A stretch of DNA of 64,000 nt from Bacteroidota bacterium (GTDB taxonomy: Bacteria; Bacteroidota; Bacteroidia; Palsa-965): contig VBWE01000016.1 of the NCBI GenBank assembly GCA_006218065.1, positions 20,959 through 84,958 of the forward strand, in the 5' to 3' direction. The notes beneath the pieces were generated by a model. The model did not search any database and was not told the DNA's origin. It worked only from the letters and a program-made list of their open reading frames with translations. A program made the translations under genes and the position numbers. Positions within the stretch are counted from its first letter, which is position 1, and every line of letters begins with the position of its first letter. Positions 33,286 to 46,414 of the stretch are shown piece by piece.

Positions 33286-33377
33286 ATGAACAGCGGTGTT
33301 GATGAGTGTTACCCGGACAGATGTACGTTGTTATATCTATAAAGTTCGGAAAATCTTTGCGAACTTTGAGTAACGAT

Positions 33378-34016
33378 ATGACAATTCGAAAGTTCATCCT
33401 GCCTTTTGTCCTCTTTTTGCCTTTGCTGGCGCAGGCTGCGGGCGATTCGATCGCTTACGGTTCCGGTTTTCGTTTCCGCGACGGTATTTTTCTCCGTTAC
33501 GAGCAGTTTCGCAGCAATAGCCCCGTCCCGAAAAAAAGCATCATTTCGAGTTACGATACCACGCGCCTCGATTTTGTGAAGACGATGCTCAGTTACAACA
33601 GCGTGCATTATCGTGATACAGCGAACCTCGAACAATCCGTGGGCAGCGACAAAGTATGGGGATACGCCGAAAACGGCGCAGCATATATTTATGTGAACGG
33701 GCAATTCAACCGCATTACGGTGGTGGGAAGTCTCTGCCATTTCACGGCCATGGAAACGCATTACATGTACACCGGTTCGCCCACGCCTTACGGAAGTCCG
33801 TACGGAACGCCCGTGCAGCAGCTCGTCCAGCTCATCCTCGATACGCAGACAGGAAATGTATTGCAGTTCACACCCGAGGTGATGGAGAAGCTGCTCGAGC
33901 GCGACGATGCCCTTTATAAAGAGTTCACGGCGCTGAAAAAGAAGAAAAAGAAGCAGAGCATTTTTATCTATCTGCGGAAGTACAACGAGAAGCACCCACT
34001 GAAGTTTCCCGCGTGA
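33378..34016 (+). CDS. Secreted protein of unknown function
   Basis: 212 residues from the ATG at 33378, which gives a signal peptide (MTIRKFILPFVLFLPLLAQA); an upstream ATG at 33306 lies 72 bases earlier and adds no signal feature. The mature part repeats a beta pattern with aromatic turns (GSGFRFRDGIFLRYEQF, WGYAENGAAYIYVNGQFNRIT) and ends in a lysine-rich helix (ALKKKKKKQSIFIYLRKYNEKHPLKFPA). It is divergent from the subtilase gene. I do not recognise it. Confidence 0.6.
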   Translation: MTIRKFILPFVLFLPLLAQAAGDSIAYGSGFRFRDGIFLRYEQFRSNSPVPKKSIISSYDTTRLDFVKTMLSYNSVHYRDTANLEQSVGSDKVWGYAENGAAYIYVNGQFNRITVVGSLCHFTAMETHYMYTGSPTPYGSPYGTPVQQLVQLILDTQTGNVLQFTPEVMEKLLERDDALYKEFTALKKKKKKQSIFIYLRKYNEKHPLKFPA

Positions 34017-34064
34017 TTTTTAAATGAGCCGGGAGGATTGTGTAAATTAATTGCCGGGCAGCTT

Positions 34065-34991
34065 TTACAAAGGCACTTCCAGCGAATTTCCGTTCGAGCG
34101 CACTTCGATTATTTTAACTCTTTTTTTGCAGTGGATCGGAACGACAAACCCCGGTTCAAAGAAATCTTTCATCAGTGTGGGGCGTGGCGAATCGAGAATG
34201 TACTCTTTGGGGAAACCCAGGAAATTGTTCGGGAAATTGATTTTCGAATTATGTACTTTTTTGACGAGCACGGGGATTTCTTTGATGCCGAGGGATCGTA
34301 ATGCATAAACCCGGTGAAAGCCGTTGTTGAGAATAAACCGTTTGCCGACTTTGTAAACGCTGACAGGCTGGACTCCGTAACCGACGAAAGAAATTATTGC
34401 GGCAACGGGCACGCCTCCTCCCGAATACTCGAGATCATTGTCTTCAATTTTCTTGAAATAGGAACCCAGGTAGCGCAGATCTGAATTCGGACTGCTGAAT
34501 ACATGATGATCGGGACTGTAAACGAGGTGCTTTAATTCCGACTTGTCGTTTTTAGCAGAAAGGCAGATTTCCAGGATGTTTTCGAAACCGAGGTTCCCGG
34601 CCCAGCGCTCTTGCAGCAGGTTAGTATAGTCTTCATCCATCGTGCGCTGAAGGGAAATGATCTTGTCAATTTCGACCATTGCACATTCGACTCCGTCCGG
34701 AAAAGTTTTTCGGATGGAGTTGTCGTTTAAGTATTTCTCCACCATTGAATTGTATTGAACGGGAATTTCCCGCGACAGGATAGTTTCAGGGAGATTTTCT
34801 TCTTCCTGCAGTATCCGTTTCACACGGTCCTGCAACGAATCCCACGTGGCGAGAAGTTTTCCGATGTTGGCGACTTCTTCGTCGCTGCCCTGCTGCCCGA
34901 GAAACTGGATAATTTCTACTTCTGAGGCAAATGCGATCAGCAGCAGTTGCCTGCTGAATTCTGCGGATGATATATTGGCGTTGAATTTCAT
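34065..34991 (-). CDS. ParB-like/helical protein next to the aegerolysin gene
   Basis: 308 residues, no signal peptide or membrane helix. Residues 1-150 are helical. The C-terminal half contains GYGVQPVSVYKVGKRFILNNGFHRVYALRSLGIKEIPVLVKKV (in two pieces, about 205-250), which has the layout of a ParB/Srx nuclease-like fold (backbone strand, then N-G-x-H-R, A-L-x-x-L-G). It lies 105 bases downstream of the aegerolysin-like gene on the same strand, with no terminator seen between, so they may be co-expressed. ParB-like folds also occur in toxin, sulfiredoxin and modification systems; the activity here is unknown. Confidence 0.5.
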   Translation of the reverse strand: MKFNANISSAEFSRQLLLIAFASEVEIIQFLGQQGSDEEVANIGKLLATWDSLQDRVKRILQEEENLPETILSREIPVQYNSMVEKYLNDNSIRKTFPDGVECAMVEIDKIISLQRTMDEDYTNLLQERWAGNLGFENILEICLSAKNDKSELKHLVYSPDHHVFSSPNSDLRYLGSYFKKIEDNDLEYSGGGVPVAAIISFVGYGVQPVSVYKVGKRFILNNGFHRVYALRSLGIKEIPVLVKKVHNSKINFPNNFLGFPKEYILDSPRPTLMKDFFEPGFVVPIHCKKRVKIIEVRSNGNSLEVPL

Positions 34992-35096
34992 GATTTCGTT
35001 TTTGGTTTTTAATTGGCCTTACAGGAACCGATAGCCGCCTGGAACAACTATCGGATCGCTGTAAAACCGGGTTAGTAATTATTCCGCAGCCTGGGA

Positions 35097-35519
35097 TTAA
35101 GCTTTCCGGTAAAGATCAATTTTGACCATACCGATGGCTCCGCCGTTAGTGCTGCCGCCGCTCGTCGAAGTCATATACGCATGGTTCTTGTTGGAAATTC
35201 CCCAGGTATTTGTTGGGCTTCCCCACGGGCAGGACCAGGAGAAGGTACATACACGGTTTGAATTATTCGTCTGCGCCTTTCCGTCGAATACGTCGAAGGA
35301 ACCGACTGTACCAGCCGATGCAGATTCGCGGCCACAGGAGAAAACCGAACCCGATGCATTGTTGGCAACGACTGTTTTATCAATAGTACCGGCTGAAACA
35401 GAGGTGCTTTTGCTGCCGCTGTAAAACTTTCCCCAGGAAAGCTGGGCATTCCCGATGTGGAGTGAATTTGCAAAATTAGAGGGATTCAGGTTGGCCTGGA
35501 TCCATTGTGCATAAGCCAT
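35097..35519 (-). CDS. Aegerolysin-family protein
   Basis: 140 residues from the ATG at 35519, giving MAYAQWIQANL; fungal ostreolysin and pleurotolysin A begin in the same way (AYAQW). Further matches to the family in order are SWGKFYSG (28-35), SCGRESASAGTVGSFDVFDG (61-80), CTFSWSCPWGSPTNTW (91-106), and GAIGMVKIDLYRKA at the end. Aegerolysins are small beta-sandwich proteins that bind membrane lipids such as sphingomyelin, ceramide phosphoethanolamine or cholesterol, and many act with a MACPF or other partner to form pores. No signal peptide is present, as in fungal members. No MACPF gene is visible in the window; the nearest neighbour is the ParB-like gene. Target lipid unknown. Confidence 0.85.
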   Translation of the reverse strand: MAYAQWIQANLNPSNFANSLHIGNAQLSWGKFYSGSKSTSVSAGTIDKTVVANNASGSVFSCGRESASAGTVGSFDVFDGKAQTNNSNRVCTFSWSCPWGSPTNTWGISNKNHAYMTSTSGGSTNGGAIGMVKIDLYRKA

Positions 35520-35969
35520 GATGTTTTGTTTTAAGTTATTCCTACTCATAAGGCTTTTCGGAAACCGCCCCGTTTTTTAGCGTGGGTTCTGGACTCCACT
35601 TTTTATTTTAAAAATTGTCCTGTTGTCACAGCGGGAGGTCAACCCGGTTTGACCGTTAGATGTAGTTTGAATGTTAATCCGATCAGGTACTATGCTTTGC
35701 CCTGATTTTTCGGCGCTCGTCAATTCTTCGAATATCATAGCGGCAAATTTCAGGTCATCTGCAACCCTGCGTAAGAGTATAAATCCCTGATTTGTGAAAG
35801 CAGGTATTTATACCTGTTTTGGTTTTCCAACCGGGAGAAAATATCTGATTCAGGGTTCCCCGTGATTTCCGACTGCCTGATCGTGTATTAATATTTATAG
35901 TTTTGATCCTGTACTTAAAATAAATACGGTACACTTAAAAACATTCATCCCATAATAAAAAAACAAAAC
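35520..35969. other. Intergenic region before the lipoprotein-kinase operon
   Basis: 450 bases. It holds a 6-bp hairpin near 35804-35819 (CAGGTA-TTTA-TACCTG followed by TTTT, possibly a terminator) and a -7 box (35898-35905). No gene is supported. Confidence 0.6.
35898..35905 (+). promoter_or_regulatory. Candidate -7 box for the lipoprotein-kinase operon
   Basis: TAGTTTTG matches TAnnTTTG, 64 bases before the ATG at 35970. No clear -33 element. Confidence 0.45.
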
Positions 35970-36494
35970 ATGAAAAAGACTTCGATTTTCGCCGCGGTCG
36001 CCGCTTCCGTGATGATCCTGTATTCCTGCAGCAACCAGCCCGCTGCAGTCAAACCGTCGCAATCGGCCGCTGCCGTCCCGGTCGGTGATCACGGCACAAC
36101 CGTCAGGGTTCCGCTGGATACCGCCAGGAAGAATATATACCGTTACGATACACTGAGCCAGGCCATTTTCGCGAAGTTCCCGCATCATGTCCCGATCAGG
36201 GCGTATACGATACATGCCGGCGACATGCTGGAAGCATTGGGTATGCCGGCGGCGGACTCTGCCATTTGCCAATATAAACATGCCCGGGTTTATATCGGTT
36301 TGGACTACAACTATAGCTTCAAGCTGTATTTCACACCCGTTGACAGCGCCAGTCTCGGTGGGGATAACCCGGTAGCCGGCGTCGATGTGATCCTGCAGGA
36401 TAGCCTTGGGAAATCTTATGTTCTGGACCTGAACGCGCCCTGTCCCAATACCTGTGATGTCAACAGCCCTTTATACCGCGCCGGCAAAAAGTGA
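35970..36494 (+). CDS. Lipoprotein of unknown function heading a signalling operon
   Basis: 174 residues with a lipobox (LYSC, about C20). After an Ala/Val/Pro-rich linker the region 55-165 contains a compact fold with AYTIHAGDMLEALGM and FKLYFTPVDS, VDVILQDSLGKSYVLDLNAPCPNTCD. The cysteine pair near the end may be disulfide-bonded. It overlaps the next gene by four bases (GTGA) and is the first gene of an operon with a membrane protein, a histidine kinase and a LuxR regulator, so it may be a ligand-binding or reporter lipoprotein for that system. Confidence 0.6.
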   Translation: MKKTSIFAAVAASVMILYSCSNQPAAVKPSQSAAAVPVGDHGTTVRVPLDTARKNIYRYDTLSQAIFAKFPHHVPIRAYTIHAGDMLEALGMPAADSAICQYKHARVYIGLDYNYSFKLYFTPVDSASLGGDNPVAGVDVILQDSLGKSYVLDLNAPCPNTCDVNSPLYRAGKK

Positions 36495-37141
36495 ATTATT
36501 CAAAACTCATCATCGTCGTATCGCATGTGCCGGTTTTTGCTTCGGTCATATACGCTTTGATCATATACAAACAACTGCAACACGAACTGAAAGTTTTTTT
36601 CTGGTTTCTTTTCCTTACCGGGATACTTCAGTTCGTATCGCTGCTGCTGTGGACGAAAAGCATAAATAATATGCCTTTGCTGCATGTATATGTGATAGTC
36701 AGTTTCGTTTCCCTGGCCTGGTATTATAACTCGCTCATGAAAGATTTTATTCACAGGTATGTTATAATTATTGCTGCCGGTTTGTTCTGCCTGCTGAGCC
36801 TGTTGAATTCCCTGTTCGTACAGCCTGTTTTTTCATTTAACTCGTACGCCCTTACGCTGGAAAGTGCGTTGCTGATCATTCTTTCGCTTTCGGCATACAT
36901 CCTGCTTTTGAAAAAAATCGTGGCCGAAAAGAAAAAAGGAGAAATTAAAAGCCTGAACTGGATCAATTCGGGAGTTTTTATTTATTACTCCAGCACGCTG
37001 CTTATTTTTTATTTCGGCGACCTGATTACACACAGCTATTCACGGTCTTTTAACCGTTACACCTGGGTACTGCATTCGTTTTTGTCGATAGTGATGTATA
37101 CTTGTTTTATAATCGGGTTATGGAAGCGCCAGGCGAAATGA
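36491..37141 (+). CDS. Polytopic membrane protein coupled to a histidine kinase
   Basis: 216 residues starting with GTG inside the previous stop codon. About six to seven membrane helices (6-24, 33-53, 62-80, 88-108, 120-142, 165-182, 190-212) with short loops. In this phylum such proteins often precede NarL-type kinases that lack a sensor domain, so it probably provides the sensing module. It overlaps the kinase gene by four bases. Confidence 0.7.
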   Translation: MNYSKLIIVVSHVPVFASVIYALIIYKQLQHELKVFFWFLFLTGILQFVSLLLWTKSINNMPLLHVYVIVSFVSLAWYYNSLMKDFIHRYVIIIAAGLFCLLSLLNSLFVQPVFSFNSYALTLESALLIILSLSAYILLLKKIVAEKKKGEIKSLNWINSGVFIYYSSTLLIFYFGDLITHSYSRSFNRYTWVLHSFLSIVMYTCFIIGLWKRQAK

Positions 37142-37926
37142 ATATTCTGGCCATGCTTCTGCCGCTGGCAGGGCTGGTGTTTATTATAGCCATCGGCGTT
37201 GTGCTGCTCAACCAGCAGTTCCAGAAAAATCTATACCGGCAGCAGTTGGAACAGGAAGAGCTTAAAAATGCTCACCAGCGGGAATTGCTGATCTCAAGTA
37301 TCCGGGTGCAGGAAGAAGAACGCAAACGCATCGCGCAGGATTTACACGATGAACTCGGGGCTACCTTGTCCATTGCACGGATGCACCTGGTGCAATTACA
37401 AAAAAAATCCGGCGACGAACCGGGAAATTCGTCCGCAACGCTGGATAATATCAAAAGCCTGGTTGAATACGCGATGGCCAATATGCGCAGGATCAGTCAT
37501 GAACTGATGCCCCCGCAACTGGAAGCATTCGGTCTCGTCGAAGCGCTGGATGCGGTTGCGCTCCAGGTAAACAATGCGGGCGAAATTCATATTGACGTGA
37601 ATGCTACGCCTGATTTTCCGGACCTGGACTGGCTGGTGAAATTGGGTCTTTACCGCATCAACATGGAACTGATCAACAATACGATCAAACATGCAGGAGC
37701 CGGTAATATTATAATCGACCTGGCATGCGAAGCCGGCATTGTAATCTCGGATTACAGGGATAACGGCAAAGGCCTGCCCGAAAATTTTACCGGGAAAGGC
37801 CTGGGATATAAAGGGATGGAAGGCCGGGTCGCGTCGCTGGGAGGATCGTTGGAAACCGGGAATAACCCGGAGGGCGGTTTTTTTGCCCGGATCAAAATCC
37901 CGCTTCAAATACATTCAGAGCAGTAA
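37138..37926 (+). CDS. NarL-type sensor histidine kinase
   Basis: 262 residues from the ATG at 37138 that overlaps the previous stop. One N-terminal membrane helix (3-25), a coiled coil (30-60), HisKA_3 with ERKRIAQDLHDELGATLS (phospho-accepting H70), and HATPase_c (NMELINNTIKHAGA N-box, DYRDNGKGLP G1, GKGLGYKGMEGRV G2). It has hardly any extracytoplasmic part and presumably senses through the membrane protein encoded just before. The LuxR regulator 63 bases downstream is its expected target. Confidence 0.93.
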   Translation: MNILAMLLPLAGLVFIIAIGVVLLNQQFQKNLYRQQLEQEELKNAHQRELLISSIRVQEEERKRIAQDLHDELGATLSIARMHLVQLQKKSGDEPGNSSATLDNIKSLVEYAMANMRRISHELMPPQLEAFGLVEALDAVALQVNNAGEIHIDVNATPDFPDLDWLVKLGLYRINMELINNTIKHAGAGNIIIDLACEAGIVISDYRDNGKGLPENFTGKGLGYKGMEGRVASLGGSLETGNNPEGGFFARIKIPLQIHSEQ

Positions 37927-37989
37927 CACGTTTATATTTATATGCCAGCTTCTAAGAACATCTGAAACAATTAACGAACCGGAATACAT

Positions 37990-38661
37990 ATGGCCAACCA
38001 GGTAAAAATCGGATTAGTGGAAGACCAGCTTCTTTTCCGGGAGGGCATGAAAGCGATCCTCTCCGGTTGGACGGAGTTTGACGTGATGTTCGAATCGGCC
38101 GACGGGTATTCCGTTATCGATAAACTGGAAGGAAATGTGACCCCGGATGTTATGCTGGTAGACCTTTCCCTGCCGGCGAAGGACGGAAAAGAGTTCAGCG
38201 GCCTGGATGTTACACGCGTCCTGCTTGAAAAATACCCGGAAGTGAAAATACTCATCCTGTCTGCACACGACGATGAAAACTTTATCGCACGCCTGATCGA
38301 ACAGGGCGCGCACGGTTACCTGCTTAAAGACAGCGACCCGCAGGAAGTGCATGACGCTATTGTTTCGCTGCACACGAAAGGCTCCTACATAAACGAAAAA
38401 ACCCTGAAAGCCATTCAGCGCAACATGGGTAAAAAAAGCAACAAGCCTGTCAAAGTTGTAGCGGAAATCACCCGCCGCGAAGTCGAAATCCTGCAGCTCA
38501 CCTGCCAGCAATACACAGCGGAGGAAATTGCCGAGAAGCTTTTTATCAGCGTTAAAACCGTTAACGGTCACCGGAATAACCTGCTTCAGAAAACAGGTTC
38601 GCGAAACGTAACCGGCCTCGTCATTTTTGCGATCAAAAACCAGATCGTAGAGCTGATTTGA
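37990..38661 (+). CDS. LuxR/NarL-family response regulator
   Basis: 223 residues. Receiver at 1-125 with E11/D12, phospho-acceptor D58 (MLVDLSLPAKDG) and a conserved lysine (LLKDSDP). LuxR-type helix-turn-helix at about 158-215 (EITRREVEILQLTCQQYTAEEIAEKLFISVKTVNGHRNNLLQK). Partner of the kinase immediately upstream. Confidence 0.96.
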   Translation: MANQVKIGLVEDQLLFREGMKAILSGWTEFDVMFESADGYSVIDKLEGNVTPDVMLVDLSLPAKDGKEFSGLDVTRVLLEKYPEVKILILSAHDDENFIARLIEQGAHGYLLKDSDPQEVHDAIVSLHTKGSYINEKTLKAIQRNMGKKSNKPVKVVAEITRREVEILQLTCQQYTAEEIAEKLFISVKTVNGHRNNLLQKTGSRNVTGLVIFAIKNQIVELI

Positions 38662-38674
38662 AGGAATGAAATTT

Positions 38675-38742
38675 AATTCCGAATGCCGAAGTATCCTTTT
38701 AAAGCAATGCACTTCGCCATTCGGAGTTCGGCATTCGGAATT
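38675..38742. repeat. Inverted repeat, 16-bp arms
   Basis: Arms 38675-38690 and 38727-38742 are perfect complements (core CCGAATGCCGAA) with a 36-base loop that contains further partial copies. It starts 13 bases after the LuxR regulator stop and may act as its terminator or be a REP-type element. Confidence 0.7.
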
Positions 38743-38932
38743 CGACATTATTTTTCCACAGGCATATTTTCCTGCCACTCATCATCCTACCGTCCCCGTT
38801 CGTATAATTTCAACCGGCAAGGCTGACCCGCCTGGTAACTTTACGCTATCCCTGTGCGTCTTACTGTTGTGCCCATACTGCCTCTCAAGCGGAAAGAAAG
38901 CGTATTGTTTTACATTTTAAAATTTCGTAAAA

Positions 38933-40333
38933 ATGAAAAAACTGTTACTCACTTTCGGTATGCTGTGCCCTTTCCTGGCGCCCGCAACAATACTGAATGT
39001 ACCGGGAAACTATTCCACGATCCAGGCCGCCGTGAATGCCGCGGTTGCCGGTGATACCGTGCTGGTAGAACCCGGTATGTATTTTGAAAATATCCGCTTT
39101 ACCGGGCAGGATATTTTATTGACAAGCCGGTACTACCTGAACAGTGATACTTCATTTATAAGTTCTACCATCATCAACGGCAGCCAGCCGCAGAATCCCG
39201 ATACTGCAAGCTGTATCCTCGTTACGAACGGAGAAACGAGCGACTGCGTCATCCAGGGATTCACGATCACCGGCGGCGCCGGAACGATCTGGCTCGACGT
39301 GCACGGTGCGGGAACTTTTCGTGAAGGCGGCGGCATCCTCACGGAATTCGCTTCACCCACTATCCGGTTCAACATCATCCGGGATAACCCGGTAACGGAC
39401 AACAACGGCGTGAATGCCACGGGCGGCGGCGGAATCCGCTGCGGCGACGGTGATCCGCTGATCGCGAACAACGTGATCTGCCGGAACCAGGGCGAATACG
39501 GCGCGGGTATCGTGATGAATTACTGCACCGGGAAAATCGTGAACAACCTGATCGTGAACAATACCGGCGGGCAGGCTTTTGGCGGAGCAGGCGTATGGTG
39601 CACCGGCACGAATACGATGACCGTTGTAAAACTGGTGAACAATACGATCGCGTACAACGATGCCGTCGGTTCAGGAACTTACGGCGGAAAAGGCGGAGCT
39701 GTTTTTGTGTTCTCCGTCCGCGTGGACAGTTACAACAACATCATCTGGGGAAATACACAAACGGCGGGCGGTCCATTAGCGGCGTTCATGGGCGGACAAA
39801 TTCCCGCGCGTTATTCCGACATCCAGGGAGGGTACACCGGCGTCGGCAATATCAACGTTGACCCGATGTTCAGCGATACGATGTGTTTCCATCTCGATTC
39901 GTTATCTCCCTGCGTGGATGCCGGCGACACGCTCATCACCGACCGGACGACCGACAGTATCAATCCCGCGCCGCCGGCACTGGGAACGCTGCGCAGCGAT
40001 ATGGGCTGCTACGGCGGCTTCGATGAATATGTTTTGCCTTGCTGCCCGGCTGTTTCAGGTGTCGGTATGGTAGCGTTGGAGAACAGGAAAATCTGGAGCG
40101 CTTATCCCAACCCGGCAGCAAACGGAACATTTACATTGTACAATAGTTCCGCCAAACCGGAAACGGTGACCGTGATCGTACGCGACATGCTCGGCAAAAC
40201 GGTTTTCGAAAAACGAACCACTGAAAGTAAAATCCAGGTACCTGTTTCCGCCTGGCCTGCCGGCGTTTATTCCTGGCAGGTGACCGGAAATGAAAATAGG
40301 CAGGAACAAGGAAGAGTTATGATTACCAAGTGA
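38933..40333 (+). CDS. Secreted right-handed beta-helix protein with T9SS domain
   Basis: 466 residues. Signal peptide (MKKLLLTFGMLCPFLAPA), then a pectate-lyase-like beta-helix (about 20-370) that begins with VPGNYSTIQAAVNAAVAGDTVLVEPGMYFENI, a DUF1565-type opening, and continues with coil motifs (ILVTNGETSDCVIQGFTITGG, IANNVICRNQG, IVNNLIVNNTGG, LVNNTIAYND). C-terminal T9SS sorting domain (WSAYPNPAANGTFTLYN to QGRVMITK). Such proteins bind or cleave polysaccharide; no catalytic residues can be confirmed. Confidence 0.85.
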   Translation: MKKLLLTFGMLCPFLAPATILNVPGNYSTIQAAVNAAVAGDTVLVEPGMYFENIRFTGQDILLTSRYYLNSDTSFISSTIINGSQPQNPDTASCILVTNGETSDCVIQGFTITGGAGTIWLDVHGAGTFREGGGILTEFASPTIRFNIIRDNPVTDNNGVNATGGGGIRCGDGDPLIANNVICRNQGEYGAGIVMNYCTGKIVNNLIVNNTGGQAFGGAGVWCTGTNTMTVVKLVNNTIAYNDAVGSGTYGGKGGAVFVFSVRVDSYNNIIWGNTQTAGGPLAAFMGGQIPARYSDIQGGYTGVGNINVDPMFSDTMCFHLDSLSPCVDAGDTLITDRTTDSINPAPPALGTLRSDMGCYGGFDEYVLPCCPAVSGVGMVALENRKIWSAYPNPAANGTFTLYNSSAKPETVTVIVRDMLGKTVFEKRTTESKIQVPVSAWPAGVYSWQVTGNENRQEQGRVMITK

Positions 40334-40350
40334 CAGCGAAGGAGGCTGTA

Positions 40351-40387
40351 AAAAAGAGGTTGTCTTTTCGGACAACCTCTTTTTATT
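40351..40387 (+). terminator. Intrinsic terminator
   Basis: A perfect 10-bp stem (40355-40364 with 40371-40380), loop TTTTCG, T-run after. It lies 17 bases beyond the beta-helix gene stop. Confidence 0.92.
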
Positions 40388-40446
40388 TATATCACTTTAC
40401 GTTCATTCTTTTTAACCAGGCGTCACCCTGAGCGGAGAGCATGATA

Positions 40447-40570
40447 CGCGGCTCTCTAAAAGTAAGAAGTTCGAGATGGGCGGGCGACTGAAAAGCGCAG
40501 TTTGCTCGTGTAAATGAGCATTTTCGGTCGCCCGTCCAGCGAAGAAATTCGCCGCTTTTCGAGAGACGCG
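40447..40570. repeat. Large hairpin-forming element after dnaN
   Basis: Outer arms CGCGGCTCTC (40447-40456) and GAGAGACGCG (40561-40570) pair with one mismatch; inner arms around GGGCGGGCGACTGAAAA (40478-40494) pair with 40521-40537; an inner GCTC/GAGC loop closes it. It ends two bases from the dnaN stop. The preceding CGTCACCCTGAGCGG is a motif often found in dispersed bacterial repeats. Confidence 0.65.
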
Positions 40571-40571
40571 A

Positions 40572-41693
40572 TTAGTTATTCAACATCACCGGCATCACCA
40601 GCATCAGCGTATCCTCCGCCTCGCTATCCTTGATCGCCGGGAGCAGGATGCCTGCGCGGTTGGGCGCCGACATTTCAATAACCGCTTCTTCGCTGTCGAG
40701 GTTGGTGAGCATATCGGCCAGGAAGCGGGAGTTGAAACCGATTTCCATGTCATCGCCGACGTACTGGCAGGTGAGGCGCTCGGACGCTTCGTTGGAGAAG
40801 TCGAGATCTTCTGCCGAAATATTGAGTTCGCTGCCGGCCACTTTGAGGCGGACCTGGTGCGTGGTTTTATTCGCGAAGATCGATACGCGGCGGATAGAAC
40901 CGAGTAAAGCTGCGCTGTCGATCGTCAGTTTATTCGGATTGTTTTTCGGAATAACGGCTTCGTAGTTCGGGTATTTCCCGTCGATCAGGCGGCAGACAAG
41001 TAACGTATTGCCGAAAGAGAAACGCGCGTTGGTGGTATTGTATTCGATCTTCACGCTGCCGTCAACCGAACCGAGTACGTTCTTCAGCAGGTTGAGCGGT
41101 TTCTTGGGAAGAATGAAGGAAGCCGAGCTCGTGGCTTTGATGTCGGTGCGGCGGTAACGAACTAATTTGTGCGCGTCGGTAGCGACAAAAGTGGTGCTCT
41201 CGGGCGAGAACTGCACAAACACGCCCGACATCACCGGGCGAAGTTCGTCGTTGCCCGTAGCGAAAAGTGTTTTGGTAACCGCGCGGCCGAGTATTACCGC
41301 ATCGATGTCGATAGACGTGCCGTTTTCCAGCGCAGGCGCTTTCGGAAATTCATCGCCGTTCTGGCCGGTGATTTTGTACTTACCGTAATCGGATGAAATT
41401 TCAATCGCGAAACGTTTTTTGTCAACCGAAAAAGTCAGCGGCTGTTCCGGGAAAGTCTTCAGCGTATCAATCAGCAGGCGGGCCGGTACGGCCACGTTGC
41501 CTTCGTCTTTCGATTCGATATGCACGCTCGTGGTCATCGTCGTTTCCAGGTCGGATGCGGAAACCGTCAGCGCGTTTTTATTGATCTCAAAAAGAAAATT
41601 ATCCAAAATAGGCAGGGTATTGCTCGAATTAAGCACCCCGTTCAGCATCTGTAATTGCTTGAGTAGTGTTGAGCTGGATACAATGAACTTCAT
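40572..41693 (-). CDS. dnaN: DNA polymerase III beta sliding clamp
   Basis: 373 residues, normal length, three tandem clamp domains. Conserved segments include MKFIVSSSTLLKQLQMLNGVL, NTLPILDNFLFEI, TFVATDAHKLVRYRR (TDGHRL-like motif of domain II), DGKYPNYEAVIP, and the C-terminal LMLVMPVMLNN that forms part of the protein-binding pocket. It forms a dimeric ring that tethers polymerases to DNA. It does not adjoin dnaA, so this is not the origin region; neighbouring DUF4340, gldG and gldF follow an arrangement I recall from other gliding Bacteroidota. It has its own promoter with a palindrome over the start site. Confidence 0.98.
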   Translation of the reverse strand: MKFIVSSSTLLKQLQMLNGVLNSSNTLPILDNFLFEINKNALTVSASDLETTMTTSVHIESKDEGNVAVPARLLIDTLKTFPEQPLTFSVDKKRFAIEISSDYGKYKITGQNGDEFPKAPALENGTSIDIDAVILGRAVTKTLFATGNDELRPVMSGVFVQFSPESTTFVATDAHKLVRYRRTDIKATSSASFILPKKPLNLLKNVLGSVDGSVKIEYNTTNARFSFGNTLLVCRLIDGKYPNYEAVIPKNNPNKLTIDSAALLGSIRRVSIFANKTTHQVRLKVAGSELNISAEDLDFSNEASERLTCQYVGDDMEIGFNSRFLADMLTNLDSEEAVIEMSAPNRAGILLPAIKDSEAEDTLMLVMPVMLNN

Positions 41694-41710
41694 AGTCAGG
41701 TTGTTGGCTT

Positions 41711-41726
41711 TTTGTTAGCTAACAAA
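41711..41726. promoter_or_regulatory. 16-bp perfect palindrome at the dnaN promoter
   Basis: TTTGTTAGCTAACAAA overlaps the start-site side of the -7 box. This placement fits a repressor operator. Confidence 0.45.
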
Positions 41727-41730
41727 GATA
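41723..41730 (-). promoter_or_regulatory. Candidate -7 box of dnaN
   Basis: TATCTTTG on the minus strand matches TAnnTTTG, 29 bases before the ATG. Confidence 0.55.
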
Positions 41731-41828
41731 GCCCTTTTGATTCCCCTCGATCCCCGACTTTTGAACTATTTTTTAACAGCAATACAGTGGATTAAGTTCC
41801 TGATACTTAGGTACAACCTGCTTCGCTG

Positions 41829-41849
41829 GTCGACGACTCAGTCGTCGAC
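41829..41849. repeat. Short palindrome (10-bp arms, one-base loop)
   Basis: GTCGACGACT and AGTCGTCGAC around C41839, partly extended outward by TCGCTG/CAGCGA. It resembles the other near-loopless palindromes of the window. Confidence 0.75.
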
Positions 41850-41889
41850 TAGCAGCGACTGAGGTTCACGAGACTAAGGTTCAAGAGGC

Positions 41890-42966
41890 TTATTCCCCTT
41901 TAGTTTTCGGCTCTTTATTGCCCGCGGGCTGCTTTTTGGTCTCCGCCAGGAAATACTCCGGCATTTGCAGCAGTTTCCCGAAAACATAATACTGCACCAG
42001 TACAAAATCCTTGTCGTTTATCAGCGCATACATCCGGTCGGGATCGATGTAAATTTTTTGCGTCGTGTCGCGCGATTCGCCGTCGCCCTGCTTGAGGAAT
42101 AATTTGACGGTGGTTACCTGGTTCTTCGTATCGGTGAGTTTAATGATATGCGCAGGCCCGGATTTTATCACCGAATCTTTTTTCGCAGCCTGTATCTTGT
42201 CCTCGATCGCTTCAAAACCGACCGCTCCGTAGTACGTAATGTATTGCTTGGCCCGGATCGTGTCGAAGGGAAGCGGTGCGCCGCTGTTACTTTCGAGTGT
42301 AAAAGAATACGCATTGATTAAGTTGAGCTGGAATCCCGGCACCTGCGGTTTAAGATGCTCCACGCGGATGGATTTTATTTCCGGCGGAGTATAACGGAAA
42401 ACAGTCCGGTCGCGCCAGTCCGACTCACTGGTAAAAAAACGCGTGGTGAGATACCCGTTGAAGCCGGGAATTTCCATGATAAAAGGCGCTTCGGCGTTTT
42501 CTTCCGTTTCCGGGTCCGAAAGCAGCATATAGGTTCCGAGCTGGTCCTGCGTATCGCTGCCCACGTAATACATGCGCACGCGGTTTTCGCCCTGGTAAAT
42601 TTCCACTTTGGTGGCGCCGGTGATCATCCATTTGAGAATGGTTTCACGCGCTTTCACCCCGACCGGGCTTTTTACCGCGACGCTGTGTATAGTAGTGAGC
42701 AGGGTTTTCATGGCATCGGGGCGGGCGGTGAATTTCTGATTCACGGTCCAGCTTCCCGCGCCTTCATCCCTGCGCAATACGACTTTCTTTCCTGCTTTGT
42801 CGGAAATAATCACGCGCGTGACGGCTGCGGTATCGGTAACCGCAAAATTCATCTGGTCCTTATCGAGCGTACCTTTTTGTTTTCCTTTCTGCGAGAGCAA
42901 CCAGATACTCGGAATGCCGACTGCGATCAGCAGGGCGAAAATAATAAGCGACTTGTTCTTTTTCAT
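41890..42966 (-). CDS. DUF4340-domain protein
   Basis: 358 residues with one N-terminal membrane helix (about 5-26), then a large extracytoplasmic region. LDKDQMNFAVTDTAAVTRVIISDKAGKKVVLRRDEGAGSWTVNQKFTARPDAMKTLL (in parts, 34-90) matches the DUF4340 opening. DUF4340 proteins are regularly encoded next to GldG-type ABC components, as here, and are thought to act with them in the periplasm. Its own -7 box lies upstream. The C-terminus is Lys/Glu-rich and disordered. Confidence 0.82.
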   Translation of the reverse strand: MKKNKSLIIFALLIAVGIPSIWLLSQKGKQKGTLDKDQMNFAVTDTAAVTRVIISDKAGKKVVLRRDEGAGSWTVNQKFTARPDAMKTLLTTIHSVAVKSPVGVKARETILKWMITGATKVEIYQGENRVRMYYVGSDTQDQLGTYMLLSDPETEENAEAPFIMEIPGFNGYLTTRFFTSESDWRDRTVFRYTPPEIKSIRVEHLKPQVPGFQLNLINAYSFTLESNSGAPLPFDTIRAKQYITYYGAVGFEAIEDKIQAAKKDSVIKSGPAHIIKLTDTKNQVTTVKLFLKQGDGESRDTTQKIYIDPDRMYALINDKDFVLVQYYVFGKLLQMPEYFLAETKKQPAGNKEPKTKGE

Positions 42967-42996
42967 AACCGGATCATTCCCAAACGGGAAACGTCA

Positions 42997-43004
42997 CAAA
43001 TTTA
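42997..43004 (-). promoter_or_regulatory. Candidate -7 box of the DUF4340 gene
   Basis: TAAATTTG on the minus strand matches TAnnTTTG, 30 bases before the ATG at 42966. Confidence 0.45.
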
Positions 43005-43149
43005 GGGGATGTTGGCGATAGTATCGGCGAAGATAATTGTTCCGGTAATGCTGCAAGTAAATTAAAAAATGCGCTTTACCGTACCTGCTGTTCGTAAAAG
43101 GACGACCCCGCTTTATATCCGGTCGAAAATACCGGCCAACTGTAAACGT

Positions 43150-44901
43150 TTAGGCAGCCGTGGTTTTTCGCCCGTATTTCCGGCGGCGGACATAAAACGC
43201 GATGATGCCGAAGAAAATGATGATGCCCACCGGCAGCAGGTTGTTGAACAGTTGCAGGTTGAGCCGCGATGCCGCCACTTTTTTCTTGTCGAGCAGGCGC
43301 ATGGAAAGTTCGCGCGAGCGCAGGCTCATCATGCCTTCATCGTCGCAGAGGTAATTCATGCAGTTCAGCAGCAGTTCCTTGTTCGCGAAAGTGTATTCCG
43401 AAAGCCGGTCGTAGCCCATCGACTCCATAATACCGTTTCGGTAATTGTTCGCCACGATTTCCCCGTCGCCGAAAATGATCATCGCCGTTTCCTTGCTTTT
43501 TTCCTTGAACCCGATCTCGCGGCTGGACGCGATTTTCGGCGGGATGCGGTTTTTGAAAGCCGACTCGAAATTACCTTCGAGCAGTACGGCCATCGGTAGT
43601 CCCGACTTGTCGAACATCCGTTCGTTCACCTGCATGAATGCTGTGCGCAGGTCGATGCGGGCGGGCGATTTAACGATGCGGGAATATTTCGAGCTGCGGA
43701 GCAGGATCGTTTTCCGGATGCCGGCTTTCGTTTCCAGCGTATCCACCGTCCCGGCATAATTGAATTTGAGCAGGTCGAGTCCTTTTACGATCGGGTGCTT
43801 GTCGGTAGGCTGCACCAGCGGCCAGTACACCCAGTTCCGCGGTTCAATCTGCGGCTGTGCCCCGGGCGGCGCCATGTTGATGGGAATATACTGGCACTGC
43901 ATATCCAGCACCAGGTCGTTGTTCACCCGCGCGCCGTAACGGAACAAAAGATCGTCCACATCCGTGGAATCGTTCAGTCCCATGGTCGAGCCGCGCTGCG
44001 CGAGACTGTCATAATTGATTTCCATCGGCTCGAGCAGCCAGAGCACTTTGCCGCCGTACATAATAAACTGGTCGATGATGAACTTGTCTTTTTCATCGAT
44101 TCTTTCCAGCGGGCGGGCGAAAATGATCGCGTCGTATTTGTTGCGGATCTGGTCGGCTTTCTGGATCGTATCGCGGAGCGCGTTCAGCTGGCCGCCAATC
44201 TGCTGGTAGCTTACCGTATAATATTCGCGGAGCGCTTTCGCAAAATCGGCCGTATATAACGAATCGAGTTCGCCGTGTCCCTGGATAAAGGCTACTTTCT
44301 GCTTGCGGTTCATCTGCAGTTTGCGGATGGCATTGGTCAGCTCGTATTCCAGTTTTTCCACGGCCTTGTTCACATCGGTGGGAATAACCTGGTCGGTCGG
44401 TGTAAAATAAAGCTGTATCGGTGTTTCCTGCGTCCTGTAAATCGCGAGCGCGCCGGGGAAAAATTTCTGCCGCGTTACACCGCCTCCTTCGTCGGCGGTC
44501 AGCCGCGGGTTGATGAAACGCAGTCCCTTTTTTTCCAGTTGGTTGTAAAGCGCTTCGCGCTGTTTCCGGTCCTTGTTGTCCGACGGGTCGATGAACTCGT
44601 ACTGCACATTGTCGCCTGCATACGCGCGGAACTCGTCGAGCATGATGCGCACTTCATCACGCAGGTGTTTCAGGTCGCCCGCTCCCTGCGGGAAATCAGC
44701 GTCGAGGTACACTTTGAAATACACCACGTCGTCGAGATCTTCCAGCATCCTGCGCGTGCCTTCCGAAAGGGTGTAGCGTTTTTCAGCGGTCAGGTCGAAG
44801 CGCGTGAAAAGGAAAGACGAAAGCACGTTAAGCATTATAACGATGATCACCCCGGCCAGGAGGCGGAGTAAATCTCTTCGTTTATTTGTGCTTTTGCTCA
44901 T
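43150..44901 (-). CDS. gldG: Gliding-motility ABC transporter substrate-binding-type subunit GldG
   Basis: 583 residues from the ATG at 44901 (an in-frame GTG at 44916 is weaker). N-terminal membrane helix (about 15-35), then LFTRFDLTAEKRYTLSEGTRRML, the typical GldG beginning, a large periplasmic part with an ABC_transp_aux fold (VAFIQGHGELDSLY, KYDAIIFARPLERIDEKDKFIIDQFIMYGGKVLWLLEPM) and a C-terminal membrane helix (about 552-572) ending in Arg/Lys. With GldF it forms the membrane part of the Gld ABC complex needed for gliding in Flavobacterium. It begins 8 bases after the gldF stop. Confidence 0.95.
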   Translation of the reverse strand: MSKSTNKRRDLLRLLAGVIIVIMLNVLSSFLFTRFDLTAEKRYTLSEGTRRMLEDLDDVVYFKVYLDADFPQGAGDLKHLRDEVRIMLDEFRAYAGDNVQYEFIDPSDNKDRKQREALYNQLEKKGLRFINPRLTADEGGGVTRQKFFPGALAIYRTQETPIQLYFTPTDQVIPTDVNKAVEKLEYELTNAIRKLQMNRKQKVAFIQGHGELDSLYTADFAKALREYYTVSYQQIGGQLNALRDTIQKADQIRNKYDAIIFARPLERIDEKDKFIIDQFIMYGGKVLWLLEPMEINYDSLAQRGSTMGLNDSTDVDDLLFRYGARVNNDLVLDMQCQYIPINMAPPGAQPQIEPRNWVYWPLVQPTDKHPIVKGLDLLKFNYAGTVDTLETKAGIRKTILLRSSKYSRIVKSPARIDLRTAFMQVNERMFDKSGLPMAVLLEGNFESAFKNRIPPKIASSREIGFKEKSKETAMIIFGDGEIVANNYRNGIMESMGYDRLSEYTFANKELLLNCMNYLCDDEGMMSLRSRELSMRLLDKKKVAASRLNLQLFNNLLPVGIIIFFGIIAFYVRRRKYGRKTTAA

Positions 44902-44909
44902 ACTTTCTG

Positions 44910-45641
44910 TTACCACTTCCTGCTTTCCAGTACCGTCCGTGTTCCCACGATAAACAAGGCGTTGAAACTGATGAAATAAATAAGATCGCGCGTATCGATC
45001 GCACCGCGGCTCATCGATTCGTAATGTTCGGAAATGCCCAGCGCCTGGATAAACGTGTCGGCTTTCCCGAAAAGTGAAAGTGAACTGATGCTTTCGAAAC
45101 CGATATAGCAGAAAAAGCAGAGCGCAAGCGCAATGATGAACGAAACGATCTGGTTATCGGTGAGCGATGACGCGAATACGCCGATGGCGGCGAACGAAGA
45201 TCCCAGGAAAAGCAGCCCGATATACGAACCCCAGGTCCCGCCGCTGTCGATATTGCCCACCGGGTTGCCCAGTTTGTGAACCGAATAATAATACACGAGC
45301 GTGGGTACCAGCGAAAAAAGCACGAGCACGAGCGCGGCGAAGTATTTGGCCAGGATGATCTGCAGGTCGGTGAGCGGGCGGGTGAGCAGCAATTCGATGG
45401 TGCCGGTTCTTTTTTCTTCGGCGAACGAACGCATGGTGATGGCCGGGATGAGCAGGAGGAAAACCCAGGGGCCGAGATCGAAAAGCGAACTCAGCGTGGA
45501 ATACCCGCCGTCGAGCACGTTTGTCGGTCCGCGGAGGATCCACATGAAAAGCCCGATAGCCAGCAGGAATACCACAATCACGATGTACCCGATCAGGGAA
45601 CTGAGGAAACTGCGTATTTCTTTTATAAAGAGTGCGTACAT
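44910..45641 (-). CDS. gldF: Gliding-motility ABC transporter permease GldF
   Basis: 243 residues with six membrane helices. ABC-2 type permease features: SSLIGYIVIVVFLLAIGLFMW near the start and PAITMRSFAEEKRTGTIELLLTRPLTDLQIILAKY, which is the conserved cytoplasmic coupling segment. The sequence LDGGYSTLSSLFDLGPWVFL is typical for GldF. It is first gene of the gldF-gldG unit with its own -7 box. The ATPase gldA is not adjacent, as in Flavobacterium. Confidence 0.95.
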   Translation of the reverse strand: MYALFIKEIRSFLSSLIGYIVIVVFLLAIGLFMWILRGPTNVLDGGYSTLSSLFDLGPWVFLLLIPAITMRSFAEEKRTGTIELLLTRPLTDLQIILAKYFAALVLVLFSLVPTLVYYYSVHKLGNPVGNIDSGGTWGSYIGLLFLGSSFAAIGVFASSLTDNQIVSFIIALALCFFCYIGFESISSLSLFGKADTFIQALGISEHYESMSRGAIDTRDLIYFISFNALFIVGTRTVLESRKW

Positions 45642-45660
45642 AATGCGCGGCTGGCGAGGC

Positions 45661-45668
45661 CAAAATTA
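45661..45668 (-). promoter_or_regulatory. Candidate -7 box of gldF-gldG
   Basis: TAATTTTG on the minus strand matches TAnnTTTG, 19 bases before the gldF ATG. Confidence 0.5.
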
Positions 45669-45814
45669 ACATTTTTTGAACGGGGCGATGTTGTGGAACC
45701 GAGGGCAATCAGGCATCATTATTCACAACAGCCTTTTAATAACGGAACTTGCGGCTGGGAATTATGCCTGTTGGCATGGTTTTTTACGAAATTGCATTCC
45801 ACCAACCGAAAATT

Positions 45815-46414
45815 ATGACCTACATATCCACCAACAACGACCAGCCGGGCATTGTTACCCTGCTTTTCTACAAACCTTCCACCGGCCGCGCGCTCTCCAG
45901 CCTGGCGCATACGCTCCTGCACGGACCTTCGCCGCTCACCAGCAGCGAACGCGAACTTATCGCTTCGTACGTTTCCTGGCTCAACAACTGCCCTTTCTGC
46001 CACCAGTCGCACGGCGGCGCAGCCATTTGCCACGATGGCGCCAATGAAGCCATTATCGAAGCGTATAAACAAAGCATCGATAAAGCGCCGGTCAGTCCCA
46101 AAATGAAAGCCCTGCTCGCCATCGCCGGTAAAGTGCAGAAAAGCGGGAAGGAGGTACTGCCAGCCGATATCGAAACCGCCAGGAAAGCCGGCGCCTCCGA
46201 CGAAGAGATTCACGATGGAGTACTCATCGCCGCCGCGTTCTGTATGTACAACCGTTATGTTGACGGGCTGAATACCCCCATGCCCGAAGATCCTTCCGAT
46301 TTCGCCGACATGGGCAAGCGCCTGGCCAAAAACGGCTACCGCTATCCGAATTTCATCGTCCGGAAATTCATCATTCCCTGGATTGAAAAACGGAAAAAAG
46401 CGAAGCGGAAATAA
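45815..46414 (+). CDS. AhpD-like / carboxymuconolactone decarboxylase-family protein
   Basis: 199 residues from the ATG at 45815 (MTYISTNNDQPGIVTLL); an ATG at 45749 adds an unconserved leader. All-helical AhpD fold with the redox motif NNCPFCHQSHGG (C-x2-C-x3-H; about 70-81), the hallmark of peroxidase-related AhpD enzymes, preceded by LTSSERELIASYVSWLN. The C-terminal part has SDEEIHDGVLIAAAFCMYNRYVDGLNTP, usual for this subfamily. It probably reduces peroxides or is a reductase partner. It is a single gene, divergent from gldF. Confidence 0.88.
   Translation: MTYISTNNDQPGIVTLLFYKPSTGRALSSLAHTLLHGPSPLTSSERELIASYVSWLNNCPFCHQSHGGAAICHDGANEAIIEAYKQSIDKAPVSPKMKALLAIAGKVQKSGKEVLPADIETARKAGASDEEIHDGVLIAAAFCMYNRYVDGLNTPMPEDPSDFADMGKRLAKNGYRYPNFIVRKFIIPWIEKRKKAKRK

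Follow-up and report, generated by a model that had tools for sequence, protein, structure and literature searches.

The 64,000-nucleotide stretch of Bacteroidota DNA analyzed here (contig VBWE01000016.1 of assembly GCA_006218065.1, positions 20,959 to 84,958; hereafter the window) carries a gene for a lipid-binding protein of the aegerolysin family, directly upstream of a same-strand gene for a protein with a predicted ParB/sulfiredoxin-like fold. The initial annotation had placed the aegerolysin gene at 35097..35519. These coordinates are correct but the strand had been left unsaid: the plus strand contains three stops, and it is the minus strand that holds an open reading frame (ORF) of 140 residues. 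All of the motifs named in that annotation were found in the minus-strand translation (MAYAQW, SWGKFY, CGRESASAGTVGSFDVFD, CPWGSPTNTW, and GAIGMVKIDL). A Pfam profile search and a fold comparison had been proposed as checks on the family assignment, and both bore it out. The PF06355 profile matched across the whole domain (profile positions 1-130 of 131) with 112.4 bits against a cut-off of 22 (E 2.1e-32), the pleurotolysin A structure 4oeb matched with an E of 6.2e-26, and the aegerolysin beta-sandwich is the fold predicted for the protein. The match is far beyond chance and settles the family assignment. An alternative in-frame ATG lies at 35549, 30 bases upstream of the start at 35519; the MAYAQW start is common to 8 of 12 aligned relatives, the two nearest included, and the N terminus is longer in the other 4.

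The aegerolysin gene and its same-strand neighbor lie between a convergent neighbor and a divergent one, the features of the locus being as follows.

35097..35519, minus strand: aegerolysin gene, 140 residues, start ATG at 35519 (MAYAQW).
34065..34991, minus strand: gene for the ParB/sulfiredoxin-like protein, 308 residues, with a G-x-H-R motif; likely the second gene of the unit.
34992..35096, minus strand: intergenic gap of 105 bases, in which sequence and scan gave no terminator-like site for this strand.
33306..34016, plus strand: convergent neighbor with a weak DUF6563 match; last gene of a block kept in relatives.
35970..36494, plus strand: divergent neighbor, a short possible lipoprotein (by eye) with only sub-threshold profile matches; it bounds the unit.

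The aegerolysin and ParB-like genes likely form a two-gene unit, within which they would be co-transcribed; promoter-like sites were at chance level in our scan. The initial annotation thus read the aegerolysin gene correctly but overlooked the likely unit to which it belongs. The new element at the locus is the ParB/sulfiredoxin-like partner, the aegerolysin itself being of a known kind. We did not find the pairing in the literature, the available text of two papers with co-mentions (PMC3710099, PMC9502095) describing no such pair.

Both genes are rare among the genomes searched. The aegerolysin gave a single match at E 0.001 in its own genome, and was present in 1 of 12 family genomes, of which 5 are less than 90% complete, and in 2 of 395 sampled genomes of the class, the second being G297. 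The ParB-like protein was found in its own genome only, both among 59 relatives and among 296 genomes of the phylum, and in none of 8 other aegerolysin-bearing genomes. Near relatives of both proteins are present in a Cytophagia bacterium metagenome-assembled genome (P0003 and P0017; longest contig 24,260 bases in both records), and the remaining near relative of each (P0002 and P0016) comes from the 'lgn' collection, which is a shared collection and not necessarily one genome; the side-by-side arrangement of the pair was read in the window. The two nearest relatives of the aegerolysin are 69% and 66% identical to the window protein and 85% identical to each other; for the ParB-like protein the corresponding values are 81%, 78%, and 88%. 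The two sets of values run in parallel, and the pair was likely inherited together.

The profile search returned 319 proteins, and among the 120 matches listed were those of Flavobacterium, Chryseobacterium, Lunatimonas, Microscillaceae, Vibrio, Photobacterium, Clostridium, and fungi. Aegerolysins are annotated in several Bacteroidota and so were already known there by annotation, a point missed when the protein was initially singled out, rightly as to family, as an aegerolysin in a Bacteroidota genome. Phylogenetic analysis (125 rows and 134 columns; the columns are few and the bootstrap had not settled; the frame-broken or short P0013 and P0014 were left out) placed the window aegerolysin and its two nearest relatives in one group with support of 100/100 and a stem length of 0.8 changes per column, the P0002-P0003 fork receiving mixed support (97/34). 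This group stands apart from the Flavobacterium/Chryseobacterium/Lunatimonas group and from Flammeovirga. A search of plasmid and phage collections with aegerolysin P0001 gave no match at E 1e-5. Five aegerolysin relatives are found on viral contigs, three of these sharing their protein with the Chromobacterium loci. Aegerolysin genes follow long ORFs, phage-tail-like by eye, at L003, L004 (Chromobacterium sphagni), and L014-L016; L014-L018 are the aegerolysin loci in the viral collection, and further viral contigs have a similar phage-tail-like setting (by eye). The aegerolysins of Chromobacterium sphagni and the viral collection are probably prophage-borne.

The ParB/sulfiredoxin-like fold of the 308-residue partner is a tentative prediction. 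The protein scored below the cut-offs of Pfam ParB_N (13.7 bits, cut-off 26.3) and TIGR00180 (15, cut-off 58.45), Pfam recognized no DNA-binding domain in it, and no homologues were confirmed in viral contigs. The GxxR phosphate-contact motif is present as G-F/V-H-R in 35 of 35 aligned rows, at residues 224-227 of the window protein. With ParB, Noc, sulfiredoxin, and SbnI/SerK (PMC12704722) the partner shares this motif and, tentatively, the predicted fold, but differs in its sub-threshold ParB_N score, in an extra N-terminal helical part, and in that its family occurs beside an aegerolysin or peptide exporters; the words bacteriocin, RiPP, export, and peptide each have 0 occurrences in the main text of that paper. 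Proteins of this fold bind several nucleotides (PMC12704722).

Distant homologues of the partner were found in four plasmid records, with 21-25% identity and the sequence NG-Y/H-HR in all four. These alphaproteobacterial loci (L021:3965-8417, L022:1619-5871, L023:3593-8441, and L026:4730-9539) each have an HlyD adaptor and a peptidase-domain ATP-binding cassette (ABC) transporter annotated beside the homologue, and profile searches confirmed C39, membrane, and ATPase domains in the Paracoccus transporter. Three of the four also carry a short gene whose product begins, as judged by eye against the double-glycine consensus, with a double-glycine-like leader that ends in GAG or GAGG. This gene lies directly upstream in Methylobacterium and Rhodobacter; in Blastomonas it lies downstream of an oxygenase gene with the exporter on the opposite strand, and in Paracoccus the ORF at the corresponding place is without such a leader. 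None of the three small proteins gave a profile match, and two of the small proteins are rich in Lys, Arg, and Ser. The plasmid loci possibly represent an unnamed class of peptide product. No double-glycine peptide or exporter was found near the window pair, and a loose double-glycine pattern run over the whole window returned 4 small ORFs, none of them near the pair. Elsewhere in the genome, on contig C60 (L037:1456-3323), a 141-residue C39-peptidase ORF directly adjoins the gene of a thiopeptide-type bacteriocin biosynthesis protein (199.5 bits to TIGR03891), which suggests a peptide-product cluster.

We examined membrane-contact residues in 123 sequences, comprising 14 homologues (the window protein included) and 109 new sequences from the profile-search matches listed. 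In ostreolysin numbering, W6 is kept in 121, W28 in 114, W96 in 122, and N101 in all 123, and the window protein keeps all four. Its Trp99 corresponds to ostreolysin position 96 and RahU position 94, and its Trp29 to ostreolysin position 28, taken as RahU position 29; Trp29 and Trp94 of RahU are required for binding to ceramide phosphoethanolamine (CPE) membranes (PMC7985367). The window protein has a ParB-like neighbor; RahU, from Pseudomonas aeruginosa, was compared by its residues. Relative to the Pleurotus proteins ostreolysin A and pleurotolysin A, the window protein has Pro for Lys99, a residue kept in 116 of the 123 sequences, has Ala for Glu69, and has no MACPF gene adjacent to it. Glu69 of ostreolysin A6 limits binding to cholesterol-complexed sphingolipid, and the E69A variant dispenses with cholesterol in binding CPE and sphingomyelin membranes (PMC9905591). 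Because Ala replaces this gating residue, the window aegerolysin is predicted from its sequence to be cholesterol-independent. Loss of Glu69 is general among the compared sequences and no peculiarity of the window protein, position 69 being Ser in 110, Ala in 10 (the window protein included), and Val, Leu, and Glu in 1 each.

The initial annotation had assumed that the Bacteroidota host makes sphingolipids itself, leaving room for self-recognition. We searched the host genome, which is 99.98% complete, with TIGR01825 and found three alpha-oxoamine synthases, none above that model's own cut-off and none passing the cut-off for serine palmitoyltransferase, so the assumption is not supported. One synthase is a glycine C-acetyltransferase (686.1 bits, cut-off 493), and another is BioF-like (342.8, below the cut-off of 426.45). 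The third scored below every NCBIfam cut-off (glycine C-acetyltransferase 295.1 against 460; serine palmitoyltransferase 290.4 against 640), and among solved structures it matched the cysteate-C-fatty acyltransferase 28eh with 600 bits and the serine palmitoyltransferase 3a2b with 223. Encoded on contig C32 (L039:1447-2688), this synthase resembles the enzyme of the first step of sulfonolipid synthesis. It has Lys at the position of SulA Lys281 (by alignment, counted by hand from Lys251), in a comparison with 7u7h, taken as the SulA structure. Alistipes SulA has Lys281 where serine palmitoyltransferase has Ala, and sulfonolipids are the sulfur-containing counterparts of ceramide-1-phosphate (PMC9304779). 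The host is predicted from these sequences to make sulfonolipids. Since no serine palmitoyltransferase was recognized, self-recognition through sphingolipids is unlikely. A sulfonolipid-making host would fit an aegerolysin aimed at other organisms, though binding to its own sulfonolipids is also conceivable.

We tentatively propose, as a possible rather than a probable account, that the two-gene unit yields an aegerolysin that would bind sphingolipid-type membranes of other organisms independently of cholesterol, with the ParB/sulfiredoxin-like protein as a helper. The aegerolysin, in which no leader is evident by eye, would be a cytoplasmic product that leaves the cell through lysis or some other route. 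The partner, predicted to bind nucleotide, may help to make, modify, or export the aegerolysin; this role is proposed by analogy, because its distant relatives adjoin small peptide genes and peptidase-type exporters. A broader version, which we consider unlikely, would have the partner's family use nucleoside triphosphates to drive the maturation or export of small secreted products (double-glycine peptides in the alphaproteobacteria, the whole aegerolysin here) and would make the locus a new lipid-recognizing antagonism system of a sulfonolipid maker against sphingolipid-bearing neighbors or grazers.

One alternative is a binary pore of the pleurotolysin A/pleurotolysin B type, for which the membrane-docked aegerolysin would recruit an unlinked MACPF-like protein. 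The genome search for MACPF genes suggested by the initial annotation turned up one weak match on another contig (C14, L002:919-2649), in an ORF of 576 residues that contains the stretch YGTHY, which resembles the MACPF signature. The match is at threshold (21 bits, 22.5 with frame neighbors, and 19.2 for the whole protein, against a cut-off of 21.5), and the ORF has no sequence similarity to solved pore-formers. At the locus itself the initial statement that no MACPF partner is visible stands, since reading and profile-scanning the adjacent genes revealed neither a MACPF gene nor a partner gene of about 735 residues. Aegerolysins studied in fungi and in some bacteria do act together with a larger partner (PMC9505663), AfIP-1A/1B of Alcaligenes being a comparable aegerolysin-partner pair (PMC5465095). 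In Chryseobacterium (L008:4359-7022), Brenneria (L010:10001-12685), and G297, a genome of the window's class (L024:2555-5231), the partner gene directly follows the aegerolysin gene on the same strand, as the ParB-like gene does in the window. However, those partners are of 734-737 residues (737 in G297; that of Brenneria matched MACPF below threshold, with 20.1 bits), whereas the window partner has 308, and the window aegerolysin belongs to a different clade. The Chryseobacterium 737-residue partner had no homologue in the host genome in a search made without a positive control. We regard a binary pore as quite unlikely.

The aegerolysin might instead act alone, as an antibacterial or anti-predator protein freed on lysis, with the ParB-like gene a co-transferred passenger such as a regulator. 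A viral aegerolysin alone killed 1 of 4 bacteria tested (PMC12163727), the Chromobacterium relatives lie in prophage-like settings by eye, and the ParB-type protein VirB can regulate genes (PMC10770331). The partner, however, is unlike decaying cargo because it is better conserved than the aegerolysin (78-81% against 66-69%), and Pfam recognized no DNA-binding domain in it; on balance we find this account unlikely. Least probable, in our estimate, is a housekeeping or developmental lipid binder that recognizes the host's own sulfonolipids, for instance in membrane remodeling. The cysteate acyltransferase-like enzyme, the likeness of sulfonolipids to ceramide-1-phosphate (PMC9304779), and the Pro in place of Lys99 all speak for such a binder, but searches of the remaining 11 family genomes, 5 of them less than 90% complete, did not turn up the gene, so it does not serve a core function.

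What aegerolysins do for bacteria is so far explained largely through pore-forming partners. The window locus offers a different, smaller partner, with identities in step with those of the aegerolysin, in a predicted sulfonolipid host. It makes testable whether bacterial aegerolysins distinguish the sphingolipids of other organisms from self lipids, and whether proteins of the ParB/sulfiredoxin fold serve the making or export of secreted proteins or peptides.

Comparison of the surroundings with 4 relatives showed the left side to be intact up to the gene ending at 34016, with synteny lost between 34016 and 34065. The flanking gene is present in 5 relatives; in the 4 that were compared (G001 was left out) the protease and DUF6563-like genes are adjacent, and the approximately 7 kb past the DUF6563-like gene gave no match to window positions 34065-46414. 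The right flank of the pair is therefore missing from these relatives as well, so an insertion of the pair alone is unsupported. The next long gene in 3 of the 4 relatives resembles an ABC-F ATPase by eye and is absent from the window at 34016-34065. Defence-system models gave no match for the three proteins tried. The Cytophagia origin of near relatives and the type IX secretion system sorting tails present in 3 of 3 window proteins tested both fit Bacteroidota.
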